From NCBI GenBank assembly GCA_028706295.1, contig JAQWBQ010000026.1, positions 1-43,187 of the forward strand: a stretch of DNA of 43,187 nt, written 5' to 3'. The notes under the pieces are model-generated. The model saw only the letters and a list, made by a program, of their open reading frames with translations. It was not told where the DNA came from and made no database searches. The stretch comes from Bacteroidales bacterium (GTDB lineage: Bacteria > Bacteroidota > Bacteroidia > Bacteroidales > FEN-979). The translations under genes were made by a program, and so were the position numbers. The first letter of the stretch is position 1, and each line of letters begins with the position of its first letter. This document shows, piece by piece, positions 3,768 to 39,439 of this stretch.

Positions 3768-5201
3768 TTAATTTCGATCTGTTGCCTCTTTATTCTTTTT
3801 GTCAATGATAGCCTGAATTTCTAAAGTATGTTTGCTACGCGGGCACCTTTCCAGGAATTCCTGGTAGTATTCTTGCAAGTCCATTTTTTTTGCTTCCTTG
3901 TAAAGAACTTCCTCCAAAACAGCCATTGTCCTGGGCTGGTTAATCAGGTAAGGATAATCAACCAGAAGCTCACTGAAATCTTTCTCAGAACTGAGAAATT
4001 GCACTTGAACCAGCACCAACGAATCCCTCATTGAGCATGCCATCTGCAGCTCATCTGAGGCAGGATACCTGTAAATAAACTGCTCAAGTGCAGATATATC
4101 ATAATCTTTTAATGCATTTTCGAATGCTATTTTATTTCTTAACTTAACTGCTTGATTAAAATAACGCGATGAAGGAAAGTTGGTAATATACTTATTTAGT
4201 GAATCTACGGTACCGGAATGGAGTGAAAACATGAGTGAATCCCTGTTATATCTAATTGATTGCGCATAATGTTTCGATAGAGGAAAGAGATCGAGAAACT
4301 CATTATACCCGGTCAATGTGTTTTCCTTTCTTGCCCTGTGAAAGCTCAGTTCAATGAACCTGTCCATCATCTTCCGAGTCTGAATTGCATTTGGAAAACT
4401 CCGGAAAAAAAATGCATAGGATTCAACCGTATTTTCTTTTATCGCCTTCTCACTTTCAAGACTATCCCTGATCTGTATTACCATAGCGTACTGTCGACTG
4501 TTAGGATAGCGATCAAGATAATCGTAAACAGCAACTAAATTTCTGCTAGTACCCGTTAGTGCATAATATGCTGCGAGATTCCTGAGGTCGATTGCCTTTT
4601 TTATGCTATCAGCAAATGGACAACGTTCGATAAAATCATTCAGTAAATTGACATCACTTGTTCCTTTTACCTTATTAAAATACATGTTATCGCGTACCTG
4701 TAGAACTTGTTTGAAGTAACGAGAATCGGGAAATTCATTAATAAATATTATTGCTGAATCAAGGTTTCTTGATTTCATTAAACTGTTAAATACCTTATCT
4801 TCAATGCGGTTATACTCTTGGTTAACTTTAATTTCAACATCTGGCAAGCTCTTGATTAGTTTGTTAAGCTGATCTATTTCACCACCCCTCAGGATGGTTA
4901 ATTGTTTCTTTGATTGTCTTATATGCCTGAATGCTTGAAAAATATCATATTTATCAATCATAGATGGGATAAGCTGAATGCTGTTGTTGGCATAAATCAT
5001 CCCCAGGCCAAGATTTGCAATAACGTCCTTAGGATATTCAAGCAATACCTTCCTGAATCCTTCCTCCGCATCGATATAGTCTCCCTTTTCATATTTATTA
5101 TAAGGTCCTTTGACCGACTGCCCTTGTACTGTAGGAATGATGGCAGCCACAAAAACCAACATTACCAAACATCTTAAACATAAAAACAATTGCCTAATCA
5201 T
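3768..5201 (-). CDS. Exported TPR-like helical-repeat protein
   Basis: 477 aa with a signal peptide (about residues 1-27, cleaved near VQGQ). Residues about 34-75 resemble a TPR unit (YNKYEKGDYIDAEEGF). The rest is built of about eight to nine imperfect units of 40-45 residues with the pattern FI..FP.S.Y...V..RD, for example YDYLDRYPNSRQYAMVIQIR and YITNFPSSRYFNQAVKLRN. Such helical repeats form protein-binding solenoids; the unit resembles repeats in outer-membrane-assembly TPR proteins. It lies 35 bases after the second kinase gene and 10 bases before the hydrolase gene, in the same operon. Inference: a periplasmic scaffold reporting to, or controlled by, the transmembrane kinases. Confidence 0.75.
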   Translation of the reverse strand: MIRQLFLCLRCLVMLVFVAAIIPTVQGQSVKGPYNKYEKGDYIDAEEGFRKVLLEYPKDVIANLGLGMIYANNSIQLIPSMIDKYDIFQAFRHIRQSKKQLTILRGGEIDQLNKLIKSLPDVEIKVNQEYNRIEDKVFNSLMKSRNLDSAIIFINEFPDSRYFKQVLQVRDNMYFNKVKGTSDVNLLNDFIERCPFADSIKKAIDLRNLAAYYALTGTSRNLVAVYDYLDRYPNSRQYAMVIQIRDSLESEKAIKENTVESYAFFFRSFPNAIQTRKMMDRFIELSFHRARKENTLTGYNEFLDLFPLSKHYAQSIRYNRDSLMFSLHSGTVDSLNKYITNFPSSRYFNQAVKLRNKIAFENALKDYDISALEQFIYRYPASDELQMACSMRDSLVLVQVQFLSSEKDFSELLVDYPYLINQPRTMAVLEEVLYKEAKKMDLQEYYQEFLERCPRSKHTLEIQAIIDKKNKEATDRN

Positions 5202-5236
5202 AGAATAGTAAATTTTAACGAATCTTTAAAACCTGT

Positions 5237-7114
5237 TTACAAACTAAATTTCACTCTTGAATTCACAATAATACCATTTTTTTTCCCGGGAGTCCAGCGG
5301 GAAGTGTTTTTCATGATTGCCTCTTTGATTTCAGGAATAAATTCCCGGTATTTTGGGAAACATTCTATACTGATATCGGTTGGTACGACATAACCATTTT
5401 TATCGATAGTAACTTGTATGTCAAAACCACTGCCTTTCGGCAGCTCCTTACCCTTAGCTTTTAAGTCATTCCTAATTTGAATGCAAAAAAGTTTACGGCC
5501 ATCGGGTATTTCCGTCAGTTCATCTTCCACATATATTCTGCCTGTTAATTTTATCGGTTCACCAATTGGTGCAGTTTGTGGAGAGGAAGGAGGCAGTTCT
5601 GTTTGTTTTGCGGCAACTGGGAGAGTCGCTCCGGGTTCCTTTGACGGGGCAGCATTTGGTCCAGTGATCACAAATTTAAGTGATCTCGACCATTGACCCT
5701 TACCCGTATGGTTTATTCCTCTGACGATGATTGAACCTGTATCGGCTTTCGGAATGAAACTGACAACAATCCGTTTTGTACCTTGTCCATCAGTAACCCT
5801 CCCAGAACGGGTTACAACCCATTCATAACTTACGGCGTTTTTTATATCCGGTATCGTATAAACGGCTTCAAAAATACCATGTTCAATTTTCGCTGTTCCT
5901 GTAATAAAACCCGGAATTCCGGGGGGGGGCTTTCTTGGGTCTGTATTTGCTGTATGTTTTACATTGTGATGCCCCGCTAAATAAGTATTGTAAACAAAAT
6001 ATGCACCCGCAGCGAGAAGAATTCCAAGAAGGGAAAGGATCAACCTTTTTATAAAAACAGATGATATCTTCAGACTGAAATCCTTTTGTTCCGGTGCTTC
6101 AGCCAATATGGCCAAGTTATCAGGTTGTGCCACACGAAATGCTTGTTTTTTTTGGCGTTTTTTAGAACCTCCAGAAAGATTTAGATCAGAAAGGTATGAT
6201 TCTAGTTCATATCCACTTTGTATTCTATCCTGTGGTTGTTTCTGAAGTAGCAATTCTACTATATTGGTCAAATGACCTGGCACATCAGGAGCTTGCTCAC
6301 ATATCGGCTGAGGCTGATCGTAAATGATTTTGTGAGCTGTTGAGATCGCGTTTTCACCCTTAAAAGGAACTTGTCCTGTGAGACACTCATACATGATCAC
6401 TCCGAGGCTGAACAGATCACTCCGGGCATCGATCTGCCTTCCCTCAGCCTGTTCTGGACTCATATATTCAGGAGTACCAATTACAGTACCTGGCATGGTT
6501 AGTTTGGAATCATACACAGCGAAGGCAATACCGAAATCGGTAAGCACAGGACGGCCAGACCTGGTAATAATGATATTAGAACTTTTAACATCCCTGTGAA
6601 TCAATCCGTTTTGATGGGCGTACCCAAGTGCAGAACCAATCTGCCTGATGTATTCGATAGTTTGTGATGGAGGTAATTTCCCATACTGTTTTATTAACTG
6701 ATGTAATTCAATTCCATCAAGGTACTCCATGACCATGAAATGTACTCCGTTGGATTCACCCTCATCGAAGATGGTTACTATATTCGGGTGGCTCAAGGAT
6801 GAACAGAACTGCGCTTCACGGTGAAATCGTATCACAAACTCCTTGTCGTGGATGTAATTCTGATGAATTATTTTAATGGCTACTGGGCGGTTCAGGTTCT
6901 TTTGAATGGCCTTGTAAACAGTGGCCATGCCACCCCTACCAATTTCGCTCCGTATTTCATATTTTGAAGAGAGTGAATTACTGATAAAACTGTCAGAAAA
7001 AATATTGCTTTCAGGAATTGCCGCACCAGTATCAAGTATACTTCCACAATGTGAACATTTAATGCCTCCTTCATAGATTACTTCTTTACAATACGGACAA
7101 ATTCTGGTGTTCAT
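5237..7114 (-). CDS. Transmembrane Ser/Thr protein kinase with zinc ribbon, PKD-like and TonB-C-like domains
   Basis: 625 aa from the ATG at 7114; a TTG six codons upstream abuts the stop of the preceding gene and is less likely. A zinc ribbon occupies residues 6-23 (CPYC...CSHC). The Hanks-type kinase domain is about 51-310: GRGGMATVY 59-67, Lys81, HRDVKSSN from 173, DFG 193-195 and SPEQ 219-222, so the catalytic residues are complete. A membrane segment lies at about 357-378. Outside there is a PKD-like beta domain, a Pro/Ala linker and a C-terminal domain resembling the TonB C-terminus (GSGFDIQVTIDKNGYVVPTD ... RWTP). The kinase faces the cytoplasm and the tail the periplasm. Just after the membrane segment the coding strand has a run of nine C (5921-5929). 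It is paired with a second kinase directly upstream. Confidence 0.92.
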   Translation of the reverse strand: MNTRICPYCKEVIYEGGIKCSHCGSILDTGAAIPESNIFSDSFISNSLSSKYEIRSEIGRGGMATVYKAIQKNLNRPVAIKIIHQNYIHDKEFVIRFHREAQFCSSLSHPNIVTIFDEGESNGVHFMVMEYLDGIELHQLIKQYGKLPPSQTIEYIRQIGSALGYAHQNGLIHRDVKSSNIIITRSGRPVLTDFGIAFAVYDSKLTMPGTVIGTPEYMSPEQAEGRQIDARSDLFSLGVIMYECLTGQVPFKGENAISTAHKIIYDQPQPICEQAPDVPGHLTNIVELLLQKQPQDRIQSGYELESYLSDLNLSGGSKKRQKKQAFRVAQPDNLAILAEAPEQKDFSLKISSVFIKRLILSLLGILLAAGAYFVYNTYLAGHHNVKHTANTDPRKPPPGIPGFITGTAKIEHGIFEAVYTIPDIKNAVSYEWVVTRSGRVTDGQGTKRIVVSFIPKADTGSIIVRGINHTGKGQWSRSLKFVITGPNAAPSKEPGATLPVAAKQTELPPSSPQTAPIGEPIKLTGRIYVEDELTEIPDGRKLFCIQIRNDLKAKGKELPKGSGFDIQVTIDKNGYVVPTDISIECFPKYREFIPEIKEAIMKNTSRWTPGKKNGIIVNSRVKFSL

Positions 7115-26269: not shown

Positions 26270-27826
26270 TTAGTTCTTCGCTCCCTTCGGTATTGTGAAA
26301 ATGAACTTTGTTCCTTGTCCGGGATGGCTTTCTACCTGAATTGTTCCTCCTATCCTTTGAACAAATTCTTTGCAGATAATCAGCCCGAATCCGCTTCCTT
26401 TCTCATTATTTGTACCAGGTAATGATGGAGTAAAAGAATCATTAAATAAAGTTTCAATTTGTTCGGATGACATTCCTATTCCCAAATCCCGGACTGACAC
26501 TTCAATCATATTTCCCGAGTTAATAACTGATAGCGTAATTTCACCTCCTTCATATGAATATTTAACCGCATTATGGAATAGATTCCGGATTATGGTTTTA
26601 ACCATGTTAGGATCACAAAAAGCTGTTGAATTGTGAGAAGAAATAATTCTGGTCGAGACTTTTTTTTGTTCAAGTAATGAGGATTCATTTCTGATAACCT
26701 CTTCAAAAAATGTTGATAAGTCTATTATTTCAGGTTTAAATTCAATAGAATTACTTTCATATCTTGCCCATTCAAAAAGATTCTCAAGTAATCTGTAAGC
26801 ATTACGTGCGCTGGAATTAATAAAAATGTTATACCTGTGGATCTCTTCAGGATTAAGTTCATTGGATTCATGCGACAAGATCGATGTATACCCTAAAATA
26901 GTCGAAAAGGAGTTTTTTAGGTCATGGCCAATAATTGAAAATATTACGCTCTTCATCCTATCGGACTTTTGTAATGCCATCGTTCGATCATTTACCTTTT
27001 GTTCAAGTGTTTCATTCAATTGGTTTAACTCATTAATTGAATTTGTAACATCCTTTCCCATCTGATTGAAGGAATTTGTAAGTGATCCGATTTCATCATT
27101 TGAAGTGACTTTGATCGGAATGAATCGTTTATTCTTAGCCAATTCATGTGTGGCAAGATCAAGTATTTTTATTGAATCTATAATTGATCTTGTCATGATT
27201 ATGAAAAGAACAGTAATAAGTATCAGTGTAATAATGGGTAGTGTTGAAAAAAACAAGGTAGCCGTAACATTTAGGCTATGAATTCTGTTGATTGATTGAA
27301 TTGCCCTATTTTGATTGGTTTGAACAAGGTGTTTAAGCAGAATTATCTGCTTTTGATAAGCTTTACGTGATTCACCAATCAGGAGTCGTTCGGCCATAAA
27401 CGAATTGTTACCGTTCACCAATACCAATATTTTCGACCAGTTATTTTTATATATACTATAAACTGCAAGAAGTTCCTTATATATGTTCTGCTCTTCTTCG
27501 GTTTGGACTAACAAGGATAGTCTCTTATGAAATTGCGTGATTTGGTTATCCACAATTCTTATTTCTTCCTCAGTTGATTTTTTCGCTAACATGTCAGAGG
27601 AGAGCATGTATTTGTATTCTTTGATCCTCAGATTTTCGATTGAAATCGTGAGTCCGTCAACGCAAATCATTGCAGGCATCCAGAGGTCAATTATTTTTTT
27701 AGTCTTTCTGGTTAATTCCTGACTATGAAGAAAAGTAATAATTCCCATGAAAATGTAAGGGATAACTGCAATCCCAAAAATAAGGACCAGTTTGAGTGAA
27801 ATTCTGAGGTTTCTGAACCATTTCAT
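26270..27826 (-). CDS. Membrane sensor histidine kinase (orphan)
   Basis: 518 aa from the ATG at 27826 (a GTG three codons upstream is also possible). Two membrane helices (about 12-33 and 191-213) enclose an all-helical extracytoplasmic region of the four-helix-bundle type. Then come a HAMP linker, a coiled coil (NELNQLNETLEQKVNDRT) and the kinase core. The phospho-accepting His301 is in IIGHDLKNSFS, the HDLKN variant. ATP-binding boxes are NLFHNAVKYSYEGG, VRDLGIGMS and GSGFGLIICKEF. No response regulator is adjacent, so its partner is elsewhere. The neighbouring AT-rich composition matches this gene. Confidence 0.9.
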   Translation of the reverse strand: MKWFRNLRISLKLVLIFGIAVIPYIFMGIITFLHSQELTRKTKKIIDLWMPAMICVDGLTISIENLRIKEYKYMLSSDMLAKKSTEEEIRIVDNQITQFHKRLSLLVQTEEEQNIYKELLAVYSIYKNNWSKILVLVNGNNSFMAERLLIGESRKAYQKQIILLKHLVQTNQNRAIQSINRIHSLNVTATLFFSTLPIITLILITVLFIIMTRSIIDSIKILDLATHELAKNKRFIPIKVTSNDEIGSLTNSFNQMGKDVTNSINELNQLNETLEQKVNDRTMALQKSDRMKSVIFSIIGHDLKNSFSTILGYTSILSHESNELNPEEIHRYNIFINSSARNAYRLLENLFEWARYESNSIEFKPEIIDLSTFFEEVIRNESSLLEQKKVSTRIISSHNSTAFCDPNMVKTIIRNLFHNAVKYSYEGGEITLSVINSGNMIEVSVRDLGIGMSSEQIETLFNDSFTPSLPGTNNEKGSGFGLIICKEFVQRIGGTIQVESHPGQGTKFIFTIPKGAKN

Positions 27827-27947
27827 ATCGTCCACTATTTGATGCCCTTTTACTAATTACGAGAATCAATAAAAAAGCAGACAGAGAAGTTTGTAAACTC
27901 ATGCTGTTACATCATAAAAAAATGAAATTGACTCTTGTTATTTATTG

Positions 27948-28703
27948 TCACTTATCATTTACAAGCCGGATTCCAAGACAATTACTTCTGTGACTTGAGG
28001 GTCGGCCGTACCGGTATGCAGAACGGCAACGCTGGGCAACGTTTTTCCAGCTGCCCCCACGTCCAACATGTAAATATCCTGTCGAAGGACCTTTCGGGTT
28101 CGTCTGGGGATCTGATGTATATTGTTCCATATAATCCTTACACCATTCCCAAACATTCCCATGCATATCGTATAACCCCCATGCATTTGCTTTCAGGCTG
28201 CCAACCGGGAGCGTTTTTTGACGGAATTCACCTTGTTTAAAATTCTGATAGGGATACGTTCCATCGTAATTTGCCTCATCGGTCGTCAGGTTTTCACCGG
28301 TACTGAAGGGAGTCGTGGTTCCGGCCCGGCATGCATATTCCCATTCTGCTTCAGTAGGAAGCCGGCAACCAATCCAATCCGCAAAAGCCTTCGCATCGTC
28401 CCACGTAACATTTATAACAGGTCGGTTTCCCCTTCCCCAACCTGCATCGTTTGGTTTTGCCTTCCCTGTGGCCTCACAGAATTTATCGTACTGGTCAAAT
28501 GTGATCTCATATTTACTCATCCTGAAACCATTAAGGGTGACGGAATGTTGTATTTCTCCTGATTCTCTTGCAAATTCACTTTCGGGGCTTCCCATTGTAA
28601 AAGTACCTGCCGGAATCTTCACCCATTCCACCTCCGGCTTGTTCTGTGCAGTTGCAAATATTGAAATGAATGCAAATGCAATACTCATACATTTTGTTTT
28701 CAT
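27948..28703 (-). CDS. Exported SUMF1/FGE-sulfatase-domain protein
   Basis: 251 aa. A signal peptide covers residues 1 to about 20 (ending FATAQN). The remainder is one formylglycine-generating-enzyme-like domain: WVKIPAGTFTMGSPESE, YEITFDQYDKFCEATG, PVINVTWDDAKAFADW, CRLPTEAEWEYACRAG, WGLYDMHGNVWEWCKDY, GRGGSWKNVAQRCRSAYR and a GIRLV end. This domain is widely used in Bacteroidota outside sulfatase activation, often as a carbohydrate- or ligand-binding module. No sulfatase gene is near. Whether the Cys pair needed for formylglycine formation is present could not be settled by eye. Likely periplasmic. Confidence 0.88.
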   Translation of the reverse strand: MKTKCMSIAFAFISIFATAQNKPEVEWVKIPAGTFTMGSPESEFARESGEIQHSVTLNGFRMSKYEITFDQYDKFCEATGKAKPNDAGWGRGNRPVINVTWDDAKAFADWIGCRLPTEAEWEYACRAGTTTPFSTGENLTTDEANYDGTYPYQNFKQGEFRQKTLPVGSLKANAWGLYDMHGNVWEWCKDYMEQYTSDPQTNPKGPSTGYLHVGRGGSWKNVAQRCRSAYRYGRPSSHRSNCLGIRLVNDK

Positions 28704-28755: not shown

Positions 28756-29349
28756 TTATAGTTTTATATGAAGTCCGTCAAAGATAAAGCTGGCTGCCTT
28801 GGCACAGATAAAAATGTACAGGATCCGGGATATGACCAGCACTCCGATCTTGCCAACGATCCTTTCAACAAAAGGAGCCAGCTTAAGAATCGGAAATATG
28901 GTTATGTAGACAAGAAAGACTGTAATAACAGTTATAACATGACCGTCGCTCTGGAGCAGCAGGATCGTTGTCAGGATCGTTCCGGGACCTGCAAGAAAAG
29001 GAAAGCCCATTGGAAAAACTGCTACGGACTGGCTGTTCTGAACAGGTGAAAAAGATGACTGAGATCCAAGAATGACTCCCCGGGCAGCTACGATAAACAC
29101 CAAGATCCCGCCGGCTATCTTAAAGGCCGGCATACTAACGTTAAAAACATTTCTCAGCATGACATCCCCAAATAAAGCAAATCCAAGCACGATAGATCCT
29201 CCTGTCAGAACTGCAATTTTATACGTCCCGGATTGTTCCTTCTTGTTCATGGCAGAAGTCAGGTCGGCAAAGAGTGGCAGATTCCCAATGGCGTTTACCA
29301 TGGCGAACAAAAGTAAGTAGTCGTGAAGAAGCTGTCTGACGGAATCCAT
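28756..29349 (-). CDS. MarC-family integral membrane protein
   Basis: 197 aa with about six membrane helices. Family features: LLLFAMVNAIGNLPLFADLT at residues 12-31, the central segment FKIAGGILVFIVAARGVIL, and FPMGFPFLAGPGTI. MarC (UPF0056) proteins are inner-membrane proteins with no settled function; transport is suspected, and the family is no longer thought to cause multidrug resistance. Its gene is the last of the opine dehydrogenase operon, 6 bases after the AsnB-like gene, so it likely handles the pathway product or precursor. Export of the product is inference from position only. Confidence 0.88.
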   Translation of the reverse strand: MDSVRQLLHDYLLLFAMVNAIGNLPLFADLTSAMNKKEQSGTYKIAVLTGGSIVLGFALFGDVMLRNVFNVSMPAFKIAGGILVFIVAARGVILGSQSSFSPVQNSQSVAVFPMGFPFLAGPGTILTTILLLQSDGHVITVITVFLVYITIFPILKLAPFVERIVGKIGVLVISRILYIFICAKAASFIFDGLHIKL

Positions 29350-29355
29350 TTCTTA

Positions 29356-30699
29356 TTAAATTACAGGAGCGTTTTTTGTTCTGCCCATCCAGTCCAGATT
29401 ATTAATCTCATCGAATTGCTCTTTAAATATCCGGTAATAGAATAGTTCCTCTTTTGTCCTCAATGTCCAGCCATTGTCTAAATTTCTTTCTGCCTTGAAG
29501 TCAGAGTCGGTGACTTTGGCTGAGGCATAATCCGAGATCAGTTCTTCCACTCCCGCACCTTCCCAGAATTTTGTCTTTGGCCGCCAGACGACATTTTCCG
29601 GCAACATGCCTTCCATCGATTTACGCAGGATCCATTTTTCAATTCCATCTTTCAGTTTTAAGGCAGACGGAATCCGGACCGCAAAGTCAAACAGTTGCGG
29701 ATCAGCAAATACAACATGGGCGGTCAAACCGTGGGCAGCAGCACATCGGTCGACGCGCTGCAAGGCCGTATTGTGAAGCCTCCCGGTAATGTCAATGAGC
29801 TCATCCTCAATCTCATTCGCAGGAATTGATTTCAGGTACTGATAGCCTGCAAACAATTCATCACCTCCTTCTCCGGAAAAGACCTCACCGACATAGTCTG
29901 ATGCAAGATCTGCAACCAGGTAATTGATAATACTTGATCTGACCAATAAGGCATCGAATGACTCCAGATGGTAGATGACACGAGGAAGAACCCTGAGCAT
30001 ATCCCTGAAGTTTACGATAATTTCATGGTGATCGGATCCTATATGTTTAGCGACTTCTTTGGCGAATGACAGGTCAGAAGCATTCCTCAGGCCTCCGGCA
30101 AATGTATGGAGCTCCCTTGCCCAAGGCCTTGCAACTGCGGCAATGGTGCTTGAATCCAAACCTCCTGACAACCAGGCGCCGATCGTATCCGAAGTTATTC
30201 TGCGGGCAACAGACGTTGTCAGCCGGTTCAATAATTCTGTTGCTATGTCATCCCAATCGTTTTGAACCGGAGATTTTTTTTCAAGTTTAAAGTAAGCAGT
30301 TCGAATTGAATTATTCATGACAGAACCCGGCGGACATTCTCTGATTGCTTCAGATATTGGCAAAAGGGCCTTAACCTCAGAGGCAAAACAAAGATTCCCT
30401 TTTTTTGTATAAGAGTAATACATCGGTGCGACTCCCAGTTCATCACGAAAAATTTGCCATTGTCCGTCCGATTTCTTAATCTCAAGATTGTGGCCAAATC
30501 CGGGTCCATCCAGATAAATTCCATTTTGTTGGTTTTTTAAGACGTTTTCATTTTCATGTTCTGTCCATATCATGCCGATGGTAGCATCGTCATAATCGAA
30601 GAGGGACTTTCCGTGAGAACCGCGATGCGACATTGATTCCAACATGCTCATGACGAGACTCTTCTCACCTTTTTTTAAGATTCCTGCAATTCCGGCCAT
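29356..30699 (-). CDS. Asparagine-synthetase-like amide ligase lacking the glutaminase Cys
   Basis: 447 aa. The C-terminal part (about 150-440) is an asparagine-synthetase-type ATP pyrophosphatase domain: SGGLDSS at 178-184, SGEGGDELFAGYQYL, and WRPKTKFWEGAG. The N-terminal glutamine-amidotransferase domain is short (about 125 residues instead of about 200) and begins MAGIAGI. In active class-II amidotransferases the residue after Met is the nucleophile Cys; here it is Ala (codon GCC). It therefore cannot use glutamine in the normal way and may use ammonia or another amine, as beta-lactam synthetase and other AsnB relatives do. It is 15 bases downstream of the B12-mutase-like gene and 6 upstream of marC. 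The product could be an amide of an amino acid made by the neighbours. Confidence 0.85.
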   Translation of the reverse strand: MAGIAGILKKGEKSLVMSMLESMSHRGSHGKSLFDYDDATIGMIWTEHENENVLKNQQNGIYLDGPGFGHNLEIKKSDGQWQIFRDELGVAPMYYSYTKKGNLCFASEVKALLPISEAIRECPPGSVMNNSIRTAYFKLEKKSPVQNDWDDIATELLNRLTTSVARRITSDTIGAWLSGGLDSSTIAAVARPWARELHTFAGGLRNASDLSFAKEVAKHIGSDHHEIIVNFRDMLRVLPRVIYHLESFDALLVRSSIINYLVADLASDYVGEVFSGEGGDELFAGYQYLKSIPANEIEDELIDITGRLHNTALQRVDRCAAAHGLTAHVVFADPQLFDFAVRIPSALKLKDGIEKWILRKSMEGMLPENVVWRPKTKFWEGAGVEELISDYASAKVTDSDFKAERNLDNGWTLRTKEELFYYRIFKEQFDEINNLDWMGRTKNAPVI

Positions 30700-30714
30700 A
30701 TAAATATTTATCTG

Positions 30715-32355
30715 TTACTGTTGTTTAAGTCTGTTTATAATGTTTAATACCCTCGTTTCCTCATCGATCGGTTCCCCGGTTGAGGGATGGATCGCGTACC
30801 ATGCTCCATTTATCAGGCCCGTAATAATATCCCCGCACAGATGAGGATTCCCTTTAAAATGAGGAGTATCAAGAAACCCTTCCCTGATGGCTGATGTTAT
30901 GACAGAGGGTTCAGACTTAGGATCATCAAAGTCAGCCCCCAAATAACTCAATGATTCAATCAGAACTTTTGCCTCATCAATAAGTTCAGATTTCCGGGAA
31001 ATGATATTATCATCCGACCATACATCTGGCAAACCATTCAAACCATTCTGTATGACTCCACGAACGATCTGGCAACTTTCAATCAGTTCTCCCGGAAATG
31101 TGGCATGATCCCCTTCACTGAATCCGACTACATGAAGTATATGGGGCTTCATTGACAGACTTATCATTGCGGAAGCAGCCAGTTGCCCCTTTGCAATAGA
31201 CGGCACAGTTGAAAAATGGGCGATCCCTGCCCGCACTTCCCGGAAAACGGTAAACGAATCATCTTCAAGTTCACTGATCATCTCAAGCTTTGCAGCCATT
31301 TTTGCAAGGTCCATTGAGGGATTTGTTCCGGGTGGGGTATTGAACATGAATTGGGCAACATAATTCCGTACTCCCATCTTCTTTGCATTGTAAGCAGCAA
31401 GGTAGGCCATGGCCACCGCCAACGAATCATGCGCGTCTCGGAGACTCCACTGATGTGATTCATTCACCTCAACGGGAATGCTCTTGGACGCATACCATTG
31501 CATGACACGTTGATTTTCGAAAATGGCTTCCTTTAGAGTGCGGTTTGAACGTCCGTCTAGGACGCTGTACCAGCAGAGAGGTATTGCGCCCCAGGCATTA
31601 TGTATCGTTTTAACGCTCATTTCAGCCCATTTCAGCAAATCGCGTGTCCCTGCATAACAACGCATCAAGGGATAATTTCCGCACCTTGATGCCTCGTACA
31701 GTGCTGCCATATCCTTACTACAGCGTACAGGCACTCCTCCTGCCCCTGATTGATTGGGATCCATTTCTTTAGGTCTGAAGAAATGTTCCTGGGCATTCTG
31801 ATCCGGACCGATAGAAATAACATCCAGTACTCCTGAAAGTGCAATCTCCTTTATTCCTTTCAGGGTCTCCTCCATGGTCGGCCTCCCGAAATGATGCCTT
31901 AGGATAGGATAAGGGTAATTTTCCCTGATCCTGCTTAATAAATCAGAAGCATATCTTGTTTTAGCAGAACCGGCCAACCTCCCTCGGAGGTACGATTGAA
32001 TTTCGGAAAGGGATTCCGATCCGTCAAAAGACCGCTCGAAAAGGTTGCATTTCCTGGCTATAGCTGCAACCGGAGGGGTTCCGCCAAAAATCAACCTTGA
32101 CTTCGAAAGATTATTTGCTTTAAGTGCTTTGTCAAGTTCATCAAACAATGTACTTGCAACTTCAGGCGTCAGACGATAACTGATGGCCGTTATTTCTGGT
32201 TTTTCACGAATAATAGCATCTACAATGCGGCTGATGGAAACTGCCGGTCCAAGTAAAATCGAGTAATAACCTTCAGCTTCAGCAATTTTCAAAAAATGAT
32301 AGAGTCCGCCAACATGAACGCAGGTACCCATCGCCGCTCCCAATATTTTTTTCAT
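30715..32355 (-). CDS. Fused B12-binding / glutamate-mutase-epsilon-like protein
   Basis: 546 aa from the ATG at 32355; an upstream TTG would overlap the previous gene. Residues 1 to about 135 look like a cobalamin-binding domain: GTCVHVGG at 10-17 in the place of the DxHxxG motif, with His14 kept (the lower cobalt ligand) and Cys12 in place of Asp; further SYRLT and FGGTPP loops fit SxL and GG motifs. The remainder resembles the epsilon (MutE/GlmE) barrel of glutamate (methylaspartate) mutase: GGVPVRCSKDMAALYEA, PLMRCYAGTRDLL, NNAW-like HNAWGAIPL, PVEVNESHQWSLRDAHDS, and FMFNTPPGTNPSMDLAK. In glutamate mutase the two parts are separate proteins, so this is a fusion. It probably rearranges an amino-acid skeleton using adenosylcobalamin; substrate unknown. 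Confidence 0.8.
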   Translation of the reverse strand: MKKILGAAMGTCVHVGGLYHFLKIAEAEGYYSILLGPAVSISRIVDAIIREKPEITAISYRLTPEVASTLFDELDKALKANNLSKSRLIFGGTPPVAAIARKCNLFERSFDGSESLSEIQSYLRGRLAGSAKTRYASDLLSRIRENYPYPILRHHFGRPTMEETLKGIKEIALSGVLDVISIGPDQNAQEHFFRPKEMDPNQSGAGGVPVRCSKDMAALYEASRCGNYPLMRCYAGTRDLLKWAEMSVKTIHNAWGAIPLCWYSVLDGRSNRTLKEAIFENQRVMQWYASKSIPVEVNESHQWSLRDAHDSLAVAMAYLAAYNAKKMGVRNYVAQFMFNTPPGTNPSMDLAKMAAKLEMISELEDDSFTVFREVRAGIAHFSTVPSIAKGQLAASAMISLSMKPHILHVVGFSEGDHATFPGELIESCQIVRGVIQNGLNGLPDVWSDDNIISRKSELIDEAKVLIESLSYLGADFDDPKSEPSVITSAIREGFLDTPHFKGNPHLCGDIITGLINGAWYAIHPSTGEPIDEETRVLNIINRLKQQ

Positions 32356-32368
32356 TGCGTTACTTTTA

Positions 32369-33490
32369 TCAAGTTGGTATATGTTGTTTCTCCCCAATAG
32401 CGAGAAGCCTCAAATCACGCAGATTCATGCCTGAAATCCCAAGTTTTTCCACGGTTCTCCCTTCAGAAAAGTAATCTTTTTGGTTCAGCAGGGATGCCAG
32501 ATGTATCAATGAATCAATCGTCGGTGTCGGAACACCGAACATTCTGCCAACAGAAGCGATCGGAACAAGACTACAGGGAACATCCTCTTCAAGATACCTC
32601 ATCTTAAGTGTTTTTGGAGCAAGGATCGATGTGTAGCCTGGATTCTTTCGCATCGCTTCATAAAGCGAAGCCCCATGTGTGCCATAGGCCATGTAGAACC
32701 ATTGATGTGCAGATATGGCACGTATTCCAAGCGCTTCGGCAACAAGAATTCGTTCTTTGTCAGTGTTTTCAAGAACCCTTGCAACCGCTTCGGTAGATCC
32801 CTGATGATAAAATTTGAAATCTTCATCATCTTCAATCCATCCCGCATTCAGAATACACAGGGCGGGATGAAAGATACTGCCGATGTTGTCAAAACTGGTT
32901 TTAAAAATATTATCGCCCGGCACAAACTGCGGGTAGAGTTCTCTGAGTTTCTTTATCACCACAGGGATCATGTGTGCCCTGACAGACGCTACCGGAATTG
33001 AGCTTTTTATACCGAAAACATGAGCTTGTCCGGGTCCTATGACACGCGAGGCATATATGAATGTTTGTGCTTCAGAAACTATGACATCGGCCTTTACATC
33101 ATTATGGGTTAATACTTGTTTAAACTCCAGTGCGCCCAATGTCCGGCCGGGATGTAAAACCACGATTTGGCCATCCTGTAAGTACGGAGCCATTTGTTCA
33201 GCAACCCAGCGATGGGCCAAGGCAGGCACAACAACCATTAACAGCTCTGCACCTTTCATGGCTTCCTCCATGTTATTGGTAGCAACAGCAATATTACCGA
33301 AACCGTTGATTTCTCCTTGAACTTCAATACCACCGGTGGATTTCACGCCCCATAACCGCTCTTCTCCCCGATTAAAAAGCTGGACATTGTAACCCATAAT
33401 AGCAAGATGTCCGGCCATGGCCATCCCGCCATGGCCTGCTCCAATAACTGCAATCGGTGGGTGCTGATCCTTTAATGGGTATCTTTCCAT
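32369..33490 (-). CDS. Opine (octopine/nopaline) dehydrogenase-family protein
   Basis: 373 aa. Rossmann motif VIGAGHGGMAMAGHLA at about residues 15-30. The C-terminal octopine/nopaline dehydrogenase domain includes FHPALCILNAGWIE (with the family His), GSTEAVARVLENTDKER, and YGTHGASLYEAMRKNP. Opine dehydrogenases reductively join an amino group and an alpha-keto acid with NAD(P)H, and some make metallophores (staphylopine type). It is the first full-size gene of the operon, 13 bases before the B12-mutase-like gene, with a 31-residue membrane peptide 20 bases upstream. No nicotianamine-synthase-like or transporter genes accompany it except marC, so a staphylopine-type pathway is unlikely. Confidence 0.88.
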   Translation of the reverse strand: MERYPLKDQHPPIAVIGAGHGGMAMAGHLAIMGYNVQLFNRGEERLWGVKSTGGIEVQGEINGFGNIAVATNNMEEAMKGAELLMVVVPALAHRWVAEQMAPYLQDGQIVVLHPGRTLGALEFKQVLTHNDVKADVIVSEAQTFIYASRVIGPGQAHVFGIKSSIPVASVRAHMIPVVIKKLRELYPQFVPGDNIFKTSFDNIGSIFHPALCILNAGWIEDDEDFKFYHQGSTEAVARVLENTDKERILVAEALGIRAISAHQWFYMAYGTHGASLYEAMRKNPGYTSILAPKTLKMRYLEEDVPCSLVPIASVGRMFGVPTPTIDSLIHLASLLNQKDYFSEGRTVEKLGISGMNLRDLRLLAIGEKQHIPT

Positions 33491-33510
33491 TTATTGATTA
33501 TTTCTTTACG

Positions 33511-33606
33511 TTAAAAAAATAGAATTTTTGCCAGGACCAACAATATGATAATCACGACCCAAGATAAAAGATAAATGATCTCTTTAATCCGCTTTGGTTT
33601 TTTCAT
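33511..33606 (-). CDS. 31-residue single-helix membrane peptide
   Basis: ATG to TAA, 31 codons, MKKPKRIKEI followed by IYLLSWVVIIILLVLAKILF, a basic N-terminus and one strongly hydrophobic helix. It lies 20 bases before the opine dehydrogenase gene on the same strand, so it may be the first member of that operon. Composition fits a real small membrane protein (positive-inside) rather than chance, though a short frame in AT-rich DNA can mimic this. No family known to me. Confidence 0.5.
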   Translation of the reverse strand: MKKPKRIKEIIYLLSWVVIIILLVLAKILFF

Positions 33607-36200: not shown

Positions 36201-37547
36201 TTATTTCCCGATAACTATTTTTACTTTATCTCCTCCCACCCGTAAGTTTAACCAGGATTCTAGACGCTGGAGTTCAGATTTACGCATATTCTTGCTGAAT
36301 TTCAGGTAGACCAGGTCCACTGTATCAGGAATTTTACTTTTTGTAGAACTTAATAAAGCTTTAGTGAATGAAACTTCCTCCACCTCTGGGAAAAGCGCCC
36401 GAATTTCATTGAGCATTGTACCTGATAAGTATCCTGATTGATATTTTGTTAATTCCTTTTCAAGCAGGTCAATCTTTTCATCTTTTGACATCAGCGTCTC
36501 TTGGTTCCTTTTGTATAGATCTTCAATGATTTGAGATTTCATGTTGGTGATATCAGAAGTAGTCAACTCTTTCATTCCCTGGGTTACCTTTAGATTTGCG
36601 TTCTGCAGATGATAATCTCCGAGTTTTTTCTTGGCATTTTCCAAAAAGTCGGGGCTGATACCTTTGCCAATATAAACAACTTTGATGGTTGCGGTAGCAG
36701 CATCAATTTTTTTCTCAATAATGGTGCTCCCTTCAAATATCAACTCCCTGCTAATAAACTGGCTTGCATTGGTCTCAAAAACATTCCTGCGAATCATGAA
36801 ATATGCTATAACGACACTTGGCACGAAGGTTATGATGACAATTAACCAGATCCAGAGCTTCATCCTATGCCCTGTGCTTTCATCACGATATTCGTGCCTT
36901 GGGAAATGCAGATATCTGACGATAAGAAAAGTAGCCAGACAAATAAAAACAGAGTTAATGAAGAAAAGATAGATAGCACCCATGAAAAAAAACATATTTC
37001 CAACGGCCAGTCCATAGCCTGCTGTGCACAATGGCGGCATTAAAGCGGTGGCAATCGCAACGCCAGGAATTACGGTTCCTTTTTCCTTGCTTGAAGTAGC
37101 AACGATTCCCGCAAAACCGCCAAACAGTGCAATAATCACGTCGTAAACCGTCGGTGTGGTCCTTGAAAGCAATTCAGAGTGTGCTTCGTTCAACGGTGAC
37201 AGTAGAAAATAAAGTGTTGAGGAGATCAAACTGATTACGATTGCGACCAGAAAATTATAGGCAGATAACCGCATTAACCTGAAGTCATTGATACCTGCTC
37301 CCAGGCCGATTCCCATGATCGGTCCCATCAGGGGCGAAACCAACATGGCCCCGATGATGACGGCAGTCGAGTTGACATTAAGCCCTACTGAAGCAATAAT
37401 GATAGCAAACATCAATACCCAGAGATTGGTGCCTCTGAAATAGATATTCCTTGTAATAGCATCAATAACCTCTCCATATTCCTCTTTATTCTTTTCAAGA
37501 TTAAAACGGTCTTTGAGAAATTTATATGTAACTGTTTTGAAATTCAT
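36201..37547 (-). CDS. DUF389-family membrane protein
   Basis: 448 aa from the ATG at 37547; an ATG at 37601 also exists, but a -7 box lies between the two, favouring the shorter form. Residues about 40-260 carry the DUF389 core with several membrane helices: VLMFAIIIASVGLNVNSTAV, IIGAMLVSPLMGPIMGIGLG, SSKEKGTVIPGVAIATALMP and PPLCTAGYGLAVG. The C-terminal 170 residues are soluble and helical with a coiled-coil section (EKIDLLEKELTKYQ). Family function is unknown. It is divergent from the ClC gene and co-directional with the NhaD remnant 4 bases downstream. Confidence 0.88.
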   Translation of the reverse strand: MNFKTVTYKFLKDRFNLEKNKEEYGEVIDAITRNIYFRGTNLWVLMFAIIIASVGLNVNSTAVIIGAMLVSPLMGPIMGIGLGAGINDFRLMRLSAYNFLVAIVISLISSTLYFLLSPLNEAHSELLSRTTPTVYDVIIALFGGFAGIVATSSKEKGTVIPGVAIATALMPPLCTAGYGLAVGNMFFFMGAIYLFFINSVFICLATFLIVRYLHFPRHEYRDESTGHRMKLWIWLIVIITFVPSVVIAYFMIRRNVFETNASQFISRELIFEGSTIIEKKIDAATATIKVVYIGKGISPDFLENAKKKLGDYHLQNANLKVTQGMKELTTSDITNMKSQIIEDLYKRNQETLMSKDEKIDLLEKELTKYQSGYLSGTMLNEIRALFPEVEEVSFTKALLSSTKSKIPDTVDLVYLKFSKNMRKSELQRLESWLNLRVGGDKVKIVIGK

Positions 37548-37570
37548 ATGATGTAGAATATCGACATCAG

Positions 37571-37578
37571 CAAATTTA
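37571..37578 (-). promoter_or_regulatory. -7 promoter box for the DUF389 gene
   Basis: Minus-strand TAAATTTG matches TAnnTTTG, 23 bases before the ATG at 37547. In AT-rich DNA such matches occur by chance, but position is right. Confidence 0.45.
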
Positions 37579-37638
37579 ATATTTATAGCGATATTAATCA
37601 TTGCAACTGGGAACCCCAGGAAAGATAAAAAGAAACTT

Positions 37639-37646
37639 TATATTTG
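37639..37646 (+). promoter_or_regulatory. -7 promoter box for the ClC gene
   Basis: TATATTTG matches TAnnTTTG and lies 20 bases before the ATG at 37667. It supports this start rather than the TTG at 37601. Confidence 0.5.
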
Positions 37647-37666
37647 GAAACCATTTACAAATCAGG

Positions 37667-39439
37667 ATGTTTATTCAGCAATTGATCAAGAAGCTTAATT
37701 ACCTCAAAGACACGTACCTTGGGGACCGTACATACTTGGTTCTGGCGAGTATCGCTGTTGGAATCGTCTCTGCTTTAGCCGCAGTAATCCTTAAACATTT
37801 TGTCCGGTTCGTTTATTCTATGTCAGACCTGTTATTATCCTGGTCGCATACGAACTATATTTACATAGTATCTCCATTGGTCGGAATTTTGTTGACGCTA
37901 TTGGTCATCAAAATATTTTTCAAAGGAAAACTCGAAAAGGGGCTTGGCAGCATTATCTTTTCTATTGCAAGACGATCGGGAAAAATCGAGGGGTCCAAAA
38001 TGTATTCGCACCTTTTAACAAGTGGTCTGACAATAGGTTTTGGCGGATCCGCAGGTCTTGAAGCTCCCATCGTGATTACGGGTTCGGCCATCGGATCGAA
38101 TATCGGCAGTTTCATGAAATTCGGCAGCAAGGAAAAAATACTTTTGCTTGCATGTGGGGCCGCCTCCGGGATTGCCGCCGTTTTCAACAGTCCGATTGCA
38201 GGTACAATCTTCGCAATTGAGGTTTTATTAGCAGACGTTTCCATTCCTGTTTTTATTCCCTTGCTGATTTCAACAGCGACGGCCACCATTGTATCAAAAT
38301 TTCTTTTGCGTGGTCAATTGTTTTACCTCGTAACAAAAGACTGGTATTTCGATGCGATTCCATATTATGTTTTATTAGGTATTTTATGCGGATTGTTATC
38401 CGTTTACATGACTCGGATGTCCCTTAGTATTGAAGGCTATTTTGAAAAGCGGAAAAGAATTCTGCCAAAAGCCGTCGTTGGTGGAATTGCACTCGGAATA
38501 CTCATTTATATTTTCCCGCCTTTGTTTGGAGAGGGATACCGCACCATTGAGATGCTTTTCGACGGCAATTTTTACGACATTTTAAATAATAGCTTTTTTT
38601 CTTCTTTACCTCTAAAGCCTTACTTTTTACTGACCTTTACCGGGCTTGTGATCTTGCTTAAAATTGTGGCGACCTCCCTGACTCTTGGTGCCGGAGGCAA
38701 TGGAGGAATCTTTGCCCCATCTTTGTTTACCGGCGCCATGGTTGGATTTGGGACTGCCTTTTTATTGAAAACTCTCGGGATCGCAGATCTTCATACCGTG
38801 AATTTTATTGCAGCAGGGATGGCGGGTATAATGGCAGGAGTTGTTCATGCTCCCCTGACAGCCATTTTTTTAATAGCGGAAATAACAGGTGGATACGTAT
38901 TATTCGTTCCATTGATGATTGTTTCCGCCTTATCTTATTTCATAAGCCGTTATTTCGAACCTTATACCATCTACACCAAAAACCTGGCAAGAAAAGGTCA
39001 GTATTCAGTGGATGATAAACTCAGTAACGTATTCAAGCACATATCCGTAGAAGAAGTCATTGAAACTGAATTTATCCCTTTAAATCAAAATGCAACACTT
39101 GGGTCACTAATCGATGCTTTCACACGTAGTAAAAGAAATGTCTTTCCTGTTGTTGATGATGATCAGAAGTTTATTGGAATCATTCCTCTTGAGAGTTTCA
39201 AGGAGCTGATCTTCAGAAATGAACTTTTTGAAACCCTACGACTTGATGACCTTACGATCAAAAATGTTGTCACTATTGAGATAAACGACAGCGTTGATCA
39301 GGCAATGCTGAAATTTGAAGAATCGGGCCTGTACAATATCCCTGTTACCCGCAATAGGAAATATGTTGGGTTTATCTCGCGTGGCAACATTATGTCTTAT
39401 TATAAGAGAATTTTAAAATCATCGTCCTCCTTCTTTTAA
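37667..39439 (+). CDS. ClC-family chloride channel/antiporter with CBS domains
   Basis: 590 aa. The membrane domain spans about residues 20-440 with the ClC signatures GSAGLEAPIVITGSAIGS (gating-type Glu132), ACGAASGIAAVFNSPIAGT, GAGGNGGIFAPSLFTGAMVG and AGMAGIMAGVVHAPLTAI. The C-terminus holds a pair of CBS domains (about 470-590; IPLNQNATLGSLIDAFTRS, RNKYVGFISRG-like end), which bind adenine nucleotides and regulate transport. The gating Glu suggests Cl-/H+ exchange or gated channel activity; distinguishing these needs the second proton-relay Glu. It is divergent from DUF389 with 119 bases between the starts. Confidence 0.92.
   Translation: MFIQQLIKKLNYLKDTYLGDRTYLVLASIAVGIVSALAAVILKHFVRFVYSMSDLLLSWSHTNYIYIVSPLVGILLTLLVIKIFFKGKLEKGLGSIIFSIARRSGKIEGSKMYSHLLTSGLTIGFGGSAGLEAPIVITGSAIGSNIGSFMKFGSKEKILLLACGAASGIAAVFNSPIAGTIFAIEVLLADVSIPVFIPLLISTATATIVSKFLLRGQLFYLVTKDWYFDAIPYYVLLGILCGLLSVYMTRMSLSIEGYFEKRKRILPKAVVGGIALGILIYIFPPLFGEGYRTIEMLFDGNFYDILNNSFFSSLPLKPYFLLTFTGLVILLKIVATSLTLGAGGNGGIFAPSLFTGAMVGFGTAFLLKTLGIADLHTVNFIAAGMAGIMAGVVHAPLTAIFLIAEITGGYVLFVPLMIVSALSYFISRYFEPYTIYTKNLARKGQYSVDDKLSNVFKHISVEEVIETEFIPLNQNATLGSLIDAFTRSKRNVFPVVDDDQKFIGIIPLESFKELIFRNELFETLRLDDLTIKNVVTIEINDSVDQAMLKFEESGLYNIPVTRNRKYVGFISRGNIMSYYKRILKSSSSFF

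Follow-up and report, generated by a model that had tools for sequence, protein, structure and literature searches.

A conserved operon of opine dehydrogenase and B12-dependent mutase genes, with a proposed role in compatible-solute synthesis

Gene content and conservation of the operon

The window analyzed here, a stretch of 43,187 nucleotides of DNA from a Bacteroidales bacterium (contig JAQWBQ010000026.1 of assembly GCA_028706295.1), carries at positions 28756 to 33606 an operon of four genes on the minus strand, encoding an opine dehydrogenase (ODH), a B12-dependent mutase (MUT), an asparagine-synthetase-like ligase (ASN) and a MarC membrane protein. ODH (33490-32369) is a 373-residue NAD(P)H-dependent dehydrogenase of the opine type with a predicted acidic amino acid substrate (R116/G204). 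It is followed by MUT (32355-30715, from an ATG), a predicted single-chain B12-dependent carbon-skeleton mutase of 546 residues, for which an alternative longer frame begins with TTG at 32397; by ASN (30699-29356), a ligase of 447 residues in which the glutaminase is lost; and by MarC (29349-28756), 197 residues, of the MarC/NAAT family. An earlier note, made from the sequence alone, had described this set as a candidate new biosynthetic operon, and the intergenic gaps of 13, 15 and 6 bases which it gave were confirmed; the enzyme families that it named (opine-type dehydrogenase, B12 skeleton mutase and AsnB-like ligase) were supported. Pfam analysis of the window proteins identified ODH as Octopine_DH (PF02317, 1.8e-47) and ASN as Asn_synthase (PF00733, 5.1e-62), and MarC matched both PF01914 (3.3e-34) and TIGR00427 (107.3 bits, over the 99.2-bit cut-off). 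MUT was matched by the B12-binding family only (2.3e-06; 27.9 bits, under the 32.1-bit cut-off).

Relatives were collected in one scan of genome contigs with MUT, which gave 83 confirmed matches; the best 80 loci were kept and are numbered with the prefix L (genomes, G). Taxa are those of the record titles, and the labels of metagenome-assembled genomes may be wrong. The titles cover more than 15 phyla, among them Bacteroidota, Ignavibacteria, Deltaproteobacteria, Aminicenantes, Hydrogenedentota, Acidobacteria, Planctomycetota, Gemmatimonadetes, Armatimonadota, Zipacnadia, Spirochaetes, Actinobacteria, Chloroflexi, Sumerlaeota, Bacillota and a Vermiphilus-type bacterium, together with methanogenic archaea, two records of which hold the ODH and MUT pair. 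ODH was found beside MUT in 77 of the 80 loci; of the three others, the contigs of L021 and L075 end inside MUT and L072 is a genuine miss. Where the two genes share a strand, ODH lies ahead of MUT in 73 loci and behind it in two (L035 and L041, the latter with ASN between MUT and ODH); in two more loci they are on opposite strands. Gene order and strand vary, and the pair persists. ASN was found in 34/80 loci and the whole quartet, in the order of the window, in six (L001, L009, L018, L026, L027 and L029); the counts for ASN and MarC are lower bounds, some contigs stopping just past MUT. With ODH beside MUT in 77 of the 80 loci and six recurrences of the exact quartet, chance does not account for the association of these genes.

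The same linkage was observed in genome samples. Of 395 genomes sampled from the window's phylum, five hold ODH (E <= 1e-60), and these five are also the ones with a MUT match extending beyond the B12 domain. The MUT profile was matched at E <= 0.001 by 229 genomes of this sample; in the other 224 the best E value was no better than 3e-9, and the matches listed for them were restricted to the B12 part. In a sample of 149 genomes from the phylum of Thermoanaerobacter wiegelii, MUT was present in 30, all of which had ODH, and ODH in 47. A plasmid search with MUT gave no match at 1e-5. The earlier note would have been refuted by a quartet found nowhere else, and the six loci go against that. The operon is conserved, uncharacterized and apparently unassigned, and as a pathway it appears to be new; no description of it was recognized in full-text literature searches, judged from the beginnings of abstracts among the matches listed, and a prior mention, for example in early ydaO riboswitch work, is possible.

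Three individual cases were also noted. L001 is titled Alphaproteobacteria and its quartet is 87-96% identical to that of the window, so that mis-binning of the contig or a recent transfer is probable. In L072 (Chloroflexi) the cobalamin-binding His of MUT is replaced by Met and no ODH lies in the fetched stretch; the function of this MUT has possibly changed. MUT-like stretches within open frames of 1232-1245 residues, with an ODH-like match nearby on each contig, were found in G525:C59 and G494:C156, and could represent a fused or multidomain version.

A riboswitch upstream of the operon in Bacillota

Rfam scans were carried out on 46 distinct sources, namely the window and 45 of the 80 loci. 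In 26 of the 46 a cyclic di-AMP (c-di-AMP) riboswitch (RF00379) was found upstream of the operon on the same strand, and these 26 comprise 25 of the 27 loci titled Bacillota together with L053, which is titled only 'bacterium'. The estimated distance from riboswitch to ODH start was mostly 55-156 bases (395 in L071). L063 has tandem aptamers, the nearer of which ends at the ODH start; in L067 a separate ASN gene stands under a c-di-AMP riboswitch of its own; and in L048, L055 and L057 the riboswitch precedes an operon of ATP-grasp, ODH and MUT genes. T. wiegelii, a thermophile available in culture, has a complete genome that carries the operon (L039). In its leader a promoter-like site comes first, followed by the aptamer, then by a terminator-like hairpin and finally by the start codon of ODH. 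Eight genomes were checked for further copies and contained 17 c-di-AMP riboswitches in total, one of them lying at the operon in each genome by coordinates; in four of the eight (G408-G411) the operon riboswitch was the sole copy found. No cobalamin riboswitch was present among the Rfam matches of the scanned sources.

According to PMC9337991, genes for osmotic shock and for the cell wall are common targets of c-di-AMP riboswitches, and a high level of c-di-AMP signifies the absence of osmotic distress. The same article describes ablA, a mutase gene for the osmolyte precursor beta-lysine, as preceded by a Na+ riboswitch in tandem with a c-di-AMP riboswitch, and eam (beta-glutamate) as associated with Na+ riboswitches.

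The opine dehydrogenase

The best solved relative of ODH is 1BG6, the Arthrobacter N-(1-D-carboxylethyl)-L-norvaline dehydrogenase, and alignment to it places R116 of ODH at Ala111 and G204 at Asn198. R116 was present in all 75 readable ODHs, G204 in 72 of 76 (with Ala in the other four) and the catalytic His208 in 76/76. A control within the phylum of T. wiegelii, which left out four genomes whose ODH matches were weak or fragments, gave the Arg/Gly pair in 29/29 ODHs sharing a contig with MUT (the ODH of G494 not included); at 18 places without MUT the pair was present in 5 and absent from 13, 7 of these being gapped at the Arg column. The pair marks the MUT-linked ODH family and, since 5 of the 18 places without MUT carry it, is not unique to that family.

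Metagenomic opine dehydrogenases (mODHs) which prefer L-Asp or L-Glu with pyruvate, as assayed with NADPH, are described in PMC10787698, where the preference is traced to Arg and Gly at positions 111 and 198 of ArODH and double mutants at this pair swap preference between L-Asp and L-Phe. By their description, ODH resembles these enzymes in the Arg/Gly pair at the same positions, in belonging to PF02317 and in having the Arthrobacter ODH as nearest characterized enzyme; the main text of the article contains neither 'cobalamin' nor 'gene cluster'. On account of the Arg/Gly pair, ODH is predicted to use an acidic amino acid. Because the Km of mODH-582 for Asp is 24.8 mM (PMC10787698), another natural acidic substrate is conceivable, and that of ODH may be other than Asp.

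The B12-dependent mutase

The B12-binding family matched all 36 aligned MUT members and PF06368 (MutE) matched 16 of them. An AlphaFold model of MUT (predicted local distance difference test, 92.7) was compared with the Protein Data Bank (PDB) by Foldseek and gave glutamate mutase as the top match (1cb7_B, 4.9e-16), followed by ornithine 4,5-aminomutase (8.5e-12), and hhalign of MUT against 15 glutamate mutase E proteins extended over 392 columns (E 5.4e-05, probability 66%). Within the single chain of 546 residues an N-terminal B12 domain is followed by a glutamate-mutase-like barrel. We take the motifs of base-off/His-on B12 binding to be DxHxxG, SxL and GG, and MUT has a domain of this type with a variant first motif, CxHxxG, in which the His is present in 78/79 members and the first position is Cys in 77/79 and Asp in 2/79. 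The genome of the window also encodes an adenosyltransferase of the PF01923 family.

By homology the MUT family is one of B12 mutases, though Pfam gives the window protein no mutase name. MUT is a relative of glutamate mutase, not necessarily a glutamate mutase itself, with a probably changed substrate pocket, and belongs to a single-chain family without a name. With glutamate mutase (MutS/MutE; 1CB7) it shares a homologous barrel, which is its nearest PDB fold, and the base-off/His-on B12 domain. Unlike that enzyme, with its separate S (B12) and E subunits, MUT is one chain with its B12 domain at the N-terminus, the substrate arginines appear not to lie at the aligned positions, and the genes of the operon include no ammonia-lyase. 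No PF06368 match was found in the window's genome. A canonical glutamate mutase elsewhere in MUT-bearing genomes was considered and rejected: PF06368 was matched in 8 of 20 genomes, where the coordinates in every case were those of MUT itself, and the other 12 had no match.

The ligase

ASN of the window clade begins with MA and not MC, and about 50 residues of the glutaminase domain are gone. The position of the catalytic Cys is occupied by Ala in the window and by Cys in 7 of 29 readable sequences, to which L018, L026 and L041 may be added by reading. Because the Cys is replaced and some 50 glutaminase residues are missing, window-clade ASN is not expected to hydrolyze glutamine. A tree built from 24 ASN rows requires at least three changes between Cys and another residue. 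The synthetase half resembles asparagine synthetase B, with conserved Glu (34/34), Arg (34/34) and Lys (32/32 readable), and AsnB is its best solved relative (5.5e-53, against 2.5e-18 for beta-lactam synthetase). It differs from AsnB, in addition to the glutaminase of the window clade, in the loss of the Thr-Thr pair, which we take to precede the Arg that binds the AsnB intermediate: the first residue is Leu, Pro or Ala and the second Leu in 34/34. ASN also matched TIGR03104, the model for the N-acetylglutaminylglutamine amide pathway, but far under its cut-off (3.9e-35, 121 bits versus 570 bits), and the precursor differs. In that pathway an AsnB-like enzyme caps a dipeptide-like osmolyte with an amide.

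In L048, L055 and L057 the operon begins with an ATP-grasp gene resembling D-Ala-D-Ala ligase (170-178 bits versus a 243-bit cut-off), L059 and L061 have similar ATP-grasp genes, placed upstream of the riboswitch, and in Methanoculleus (L050) a different ATP-grasp gene adjoins on the opposite strand. Only the genes of L048, L055, L057, L059 and L061 were counted as divergent ATP-grasp ligases. True D-Ala-D-Ala ligase was rejected as a partner, the neighbor in L037, which is encoded on the other strand, being a normal ligase (450 bits); the ligase genes of L045, L054 and L066 resemble that of L037 by position and start. Since different ligases occupy the same place, ATP-dependent coupling of a carboxylate with an amine is suggested to be part of the pathway. 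Many loci show no ligase close by.

Proposed pathway

From the computed features (the genes and their linkage, the enzyme families, the Arg/Gly pair and the riboswitch) we infer the substrates, the order of steps, the product and the physiological role in the window's own genome as follows. ODH would join an acidic L-amino acid, glutamate or an isomer of it, to pyruvate with NADPH to form an N-(1-carboxyethyl) amino acid, an opine, pyruvate being the presumed keto acid after the enzymes of PMC10787698. MUT would rearrange the carbon skeleton before this coupling, acting on glutamate, or after it, acting on the opine, and if the rearrangement is of the glutamate type, as its relatives indicate, either order would lead to N-(1-carboxyethyl)-3-methylaspartate. 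ASN, or an ATP-grasp ligase in some Bacillota, would activate a carboxylate with ATP to give an amide of lower charge, as the ligase family leads one to suppose, and release or movement of the product may fall to MarC or to a different membrane protein. This product would be a small, poorly metabolized amino-acid derivative accumulated as a compatible solute. In Bacillota, c-di-AMP, high when osmotic stress is absent, would switch the operon off.

We hold with moderate confidence that the operon represents a c-di-AMP-controlled pathway whose product is a compatible solute, namely an N-carboxyethyl amino acid that has a rearranged skeleton and is often amidated. Because of the c-di-AMP control in Bacillota, and by analogy with the ablA and eam genes, the operon most likely makes an osmolyte. 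As with those genes (PMC9337991), a mutase would turn an ordinary amino acid into an isomer that is an osmolyte or its precursor, and riboswitch control is common to both, ablA standing in tandem with a c-di-AMP riboswitch. Unlike them, the operon pairs a B12 carbon-skeleton mutase with an opine dehydrogenase and a ligase. The products of ablA (lysine 2,3-aminomutase) and eam (glutamate 2,3-aminomutase) are radical S-adenosylmethionine aminomutases working without an opine dehydrogenase. We advance more tentatively, as the less probable claim, the full proposal of a B12-dependent compatible-solute pathway in many bacterial phyla and methanogenic archaea, in which a new mutase family, an acid-specific ODH and interchangeable ligases would yield N-(1-carboxyethyl)-3-methylaspartate or its amide, and which would be the sole target of c-di-AMP riboswitches in some clostridia. 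If true, this would provide a new natural osmolyte and a new family of B12-dependent mutases, would give acid-specific opine dehydrogenases a natural role and would account for the sole c-di-AMP riboswitch found in several anaerobes.

Several observations weigh against an osmolyte pathway of this kind. No c-di-AMP riboswitch was found in the window, anywhere in its genome, or in the 17 scanned loci that are neither titled Bacillota nor L053; two Bacillota-titled loci also had none (L047, and L062 whose contig begins inside ODH), as did ten stretches around other ODHs or neighbors, the two with MUT among these holding little upstream sequence. In the T. wiegelii phylum sample, 17 genomes had ODH with no MUT match at E <= 1e-60, and an Arg/Gly ODH occurred in 6 of the 13 examined; one of these six (G543) has a broken, divergent MUT adjoining, and none was found in the fetched stretch of the other five. 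With respect to the substrate of MUT, we take the arginine claw of glutamate mutase to be numbered R66, R100 and R149. On this numbering, hhalign (66%) places R66 on H155 and R149 on Y234, with an ambiguous placement of R100; an Arg lies two residues earlier in MUT in each case (R153 in 78/79, R232 in 80/80). Because the substrate arginines of the mutase do not appear to fall on arginines in MUT, glutamate may not be the substrate of MUT.

Alternative readings

Cell-wall genes are also under c-di-AMP riboswitches, along with osmotic ones (PMC9337991), and the riboswitch at the operon might therefore reflect control of the wall, the product being an envelope building block such as a modified wall peptide or a capsule substituent. 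The resemblance of the ATP-grasp partner to D-Ala-D-Ala ligase agrees with this, as does a divergent branch of ATP-grasp, ODH and MUT genes which sits in surface-polysaccharide clusters of G230, where a sugar transferase and DegT are near, and of G543. Because of this location of the divergent branch, the module may also serve surface chemistry. The close family, however, spans Bacillota, Bacteroidota, Planctomycetota and Methanoculleus, which to our knowledge have no common wall chemistry, and no cluster of neighbors other than ODH, MUT and ASN occurred in more than nine loci; Pfam and NCBIfam searches of neighbors covered 37 neighboring frames of the 80 loci. We regard an envelope product as unlikely. 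Less likely still is a degradative operon, in which ODH would oxidize an opine-type or otherwise unusual amino acid and MUT would feed the product to fermentation. Glutamate mutase takes part in fermentation, opine dehydrogenases can work in both directions, and regulators stand near some pairs (AsnC/Lrp in L003, YheO-PAS/HTH_22 in L036), but no ammonia-lyase or amino-acid uptake system was found among the 37 neighbors searched, the pair is present in the two methanogen records, and ATP-dependent ligases together with c-di-AMP control fit synthesis better.

The two remaining alternatives concern the chemistry of the product. Beta-lactam synthetase and CarA also lack the Cys, beta-lactam synthetase acts on an N-carboxyethyl amino acid, and the repeated change of the catalytic Cys on the ASN tree would suit a similar enzyme, so that ASN might close a lactam on the opine to give an N-carboxyethyl beta-lactam. 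At the position of the catalytic Tyr, which we take to be Tyr348 of beta-lactam synthetase, all 34 ASN sequences nevertheless have Glu, as does AsnB, and AsnB is the closer solved relative; we consider lactam formation very improbable. A metallophore or signal molecule exported by MarC, both of which the earlier note had named beside an osmolyte, is the reading to which we give the least credence. Opines with extra carboxylates are able to bind metals and MarC is co-located in the quartet, but MarC is confined to 6 of the 80 loci, no receptor or exporter for such a compound was found among the neighbors searched, and the nicotianamine-synthase family PF03059 was matched in only 2 of 21 MUT genomes, partially and on contigs other than that of MUT. 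PF03059 had no match in the window's genome, and the staphylopine-type dehydrogenase model did not match window ODH, which matches PF02317. Nothing was found for a signal molecule, and of the three product classes named earlier it is the osmolyte that the c-di-AMP riboswitch of Bacillota favors.

Membrane proteins and other neighboring genes

MarC follows ASN directly in each of its six loci. Other membrane proteins follow the operon in few loci and most loci show none, so that the transport role given to MarC in the earlier note fared poorly. A mechanosensitive-channel-like protein is encoded after ODH in L035 and L041, with weak matches (39 and 52 bits versus a 100-bit cut-off), and PF05552 was over its cut-off in L041 only. 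In L006 and L024 the operon is followed by proteins of 11 transmembrane segments, antiporter-like by eye and with no Pfam match. In L064, a locus titled Bacillota and provided with a c-di-AMP riboswitch, ASN is followed by a gene (5029-6075) of DUF1646, the family after which the Na+ riboswitch class is named.

Upstream of ODH in the window, a frame of 31 hydrophobic residues (33606-33511, minus strand) sets the end of the stretch at 33606. The peptide is identical in L001, a close relative, and among the upstream regions listed that of L006 has a hydrophobic frame of 21 residues; the 31-residue frame is a possible small membrane peptide. A response regulator and a histidine kinase are encoded divergently beside the operon, which this two-component system could possibly control. 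Beyond it, the stretch 36201-39439 encodes a membrane protein of the DUF389 family and a ClC chloride channel that carries CBS domains, possibly an ion-homeostasis neighborhood. Directly 3' of MarC on the same strand (26270-28703), an FGE-sulfatase family protein is followed by a sensor histidine kinase, and this stretch is probably unrelated to the operon.

In G230 (L140:124-4291 and L139:10438-11589) the divergent MUT, ODH and ATP-grasp ligase genes overlap as an operon in a capsule-like cluster, with the sugar transferase near and the DegT aminotransferase adjoining. The MUT there gave no Pfam match and has a DxHxxG-like motif by eye, and its ODH has the Arg/Gly pair, also by eye. The second polysaccharide-type cluster (G543, L195) holds ODH, an ATP-grasp gene and MUT split into two reading frames. 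Among the Arg/Gly ODHs, that of L193 is adjoined by a symporter-like protein with no Pfam match. Those of L196 (G425) and L197 (G511), which stand without MUT, lie between a glutamine-synthetase-family gene and genes for a bacterial microcompartment shell protein and an aldehyde dehydrogenase, and an opine route may possibly be tied there to a microcompartment.

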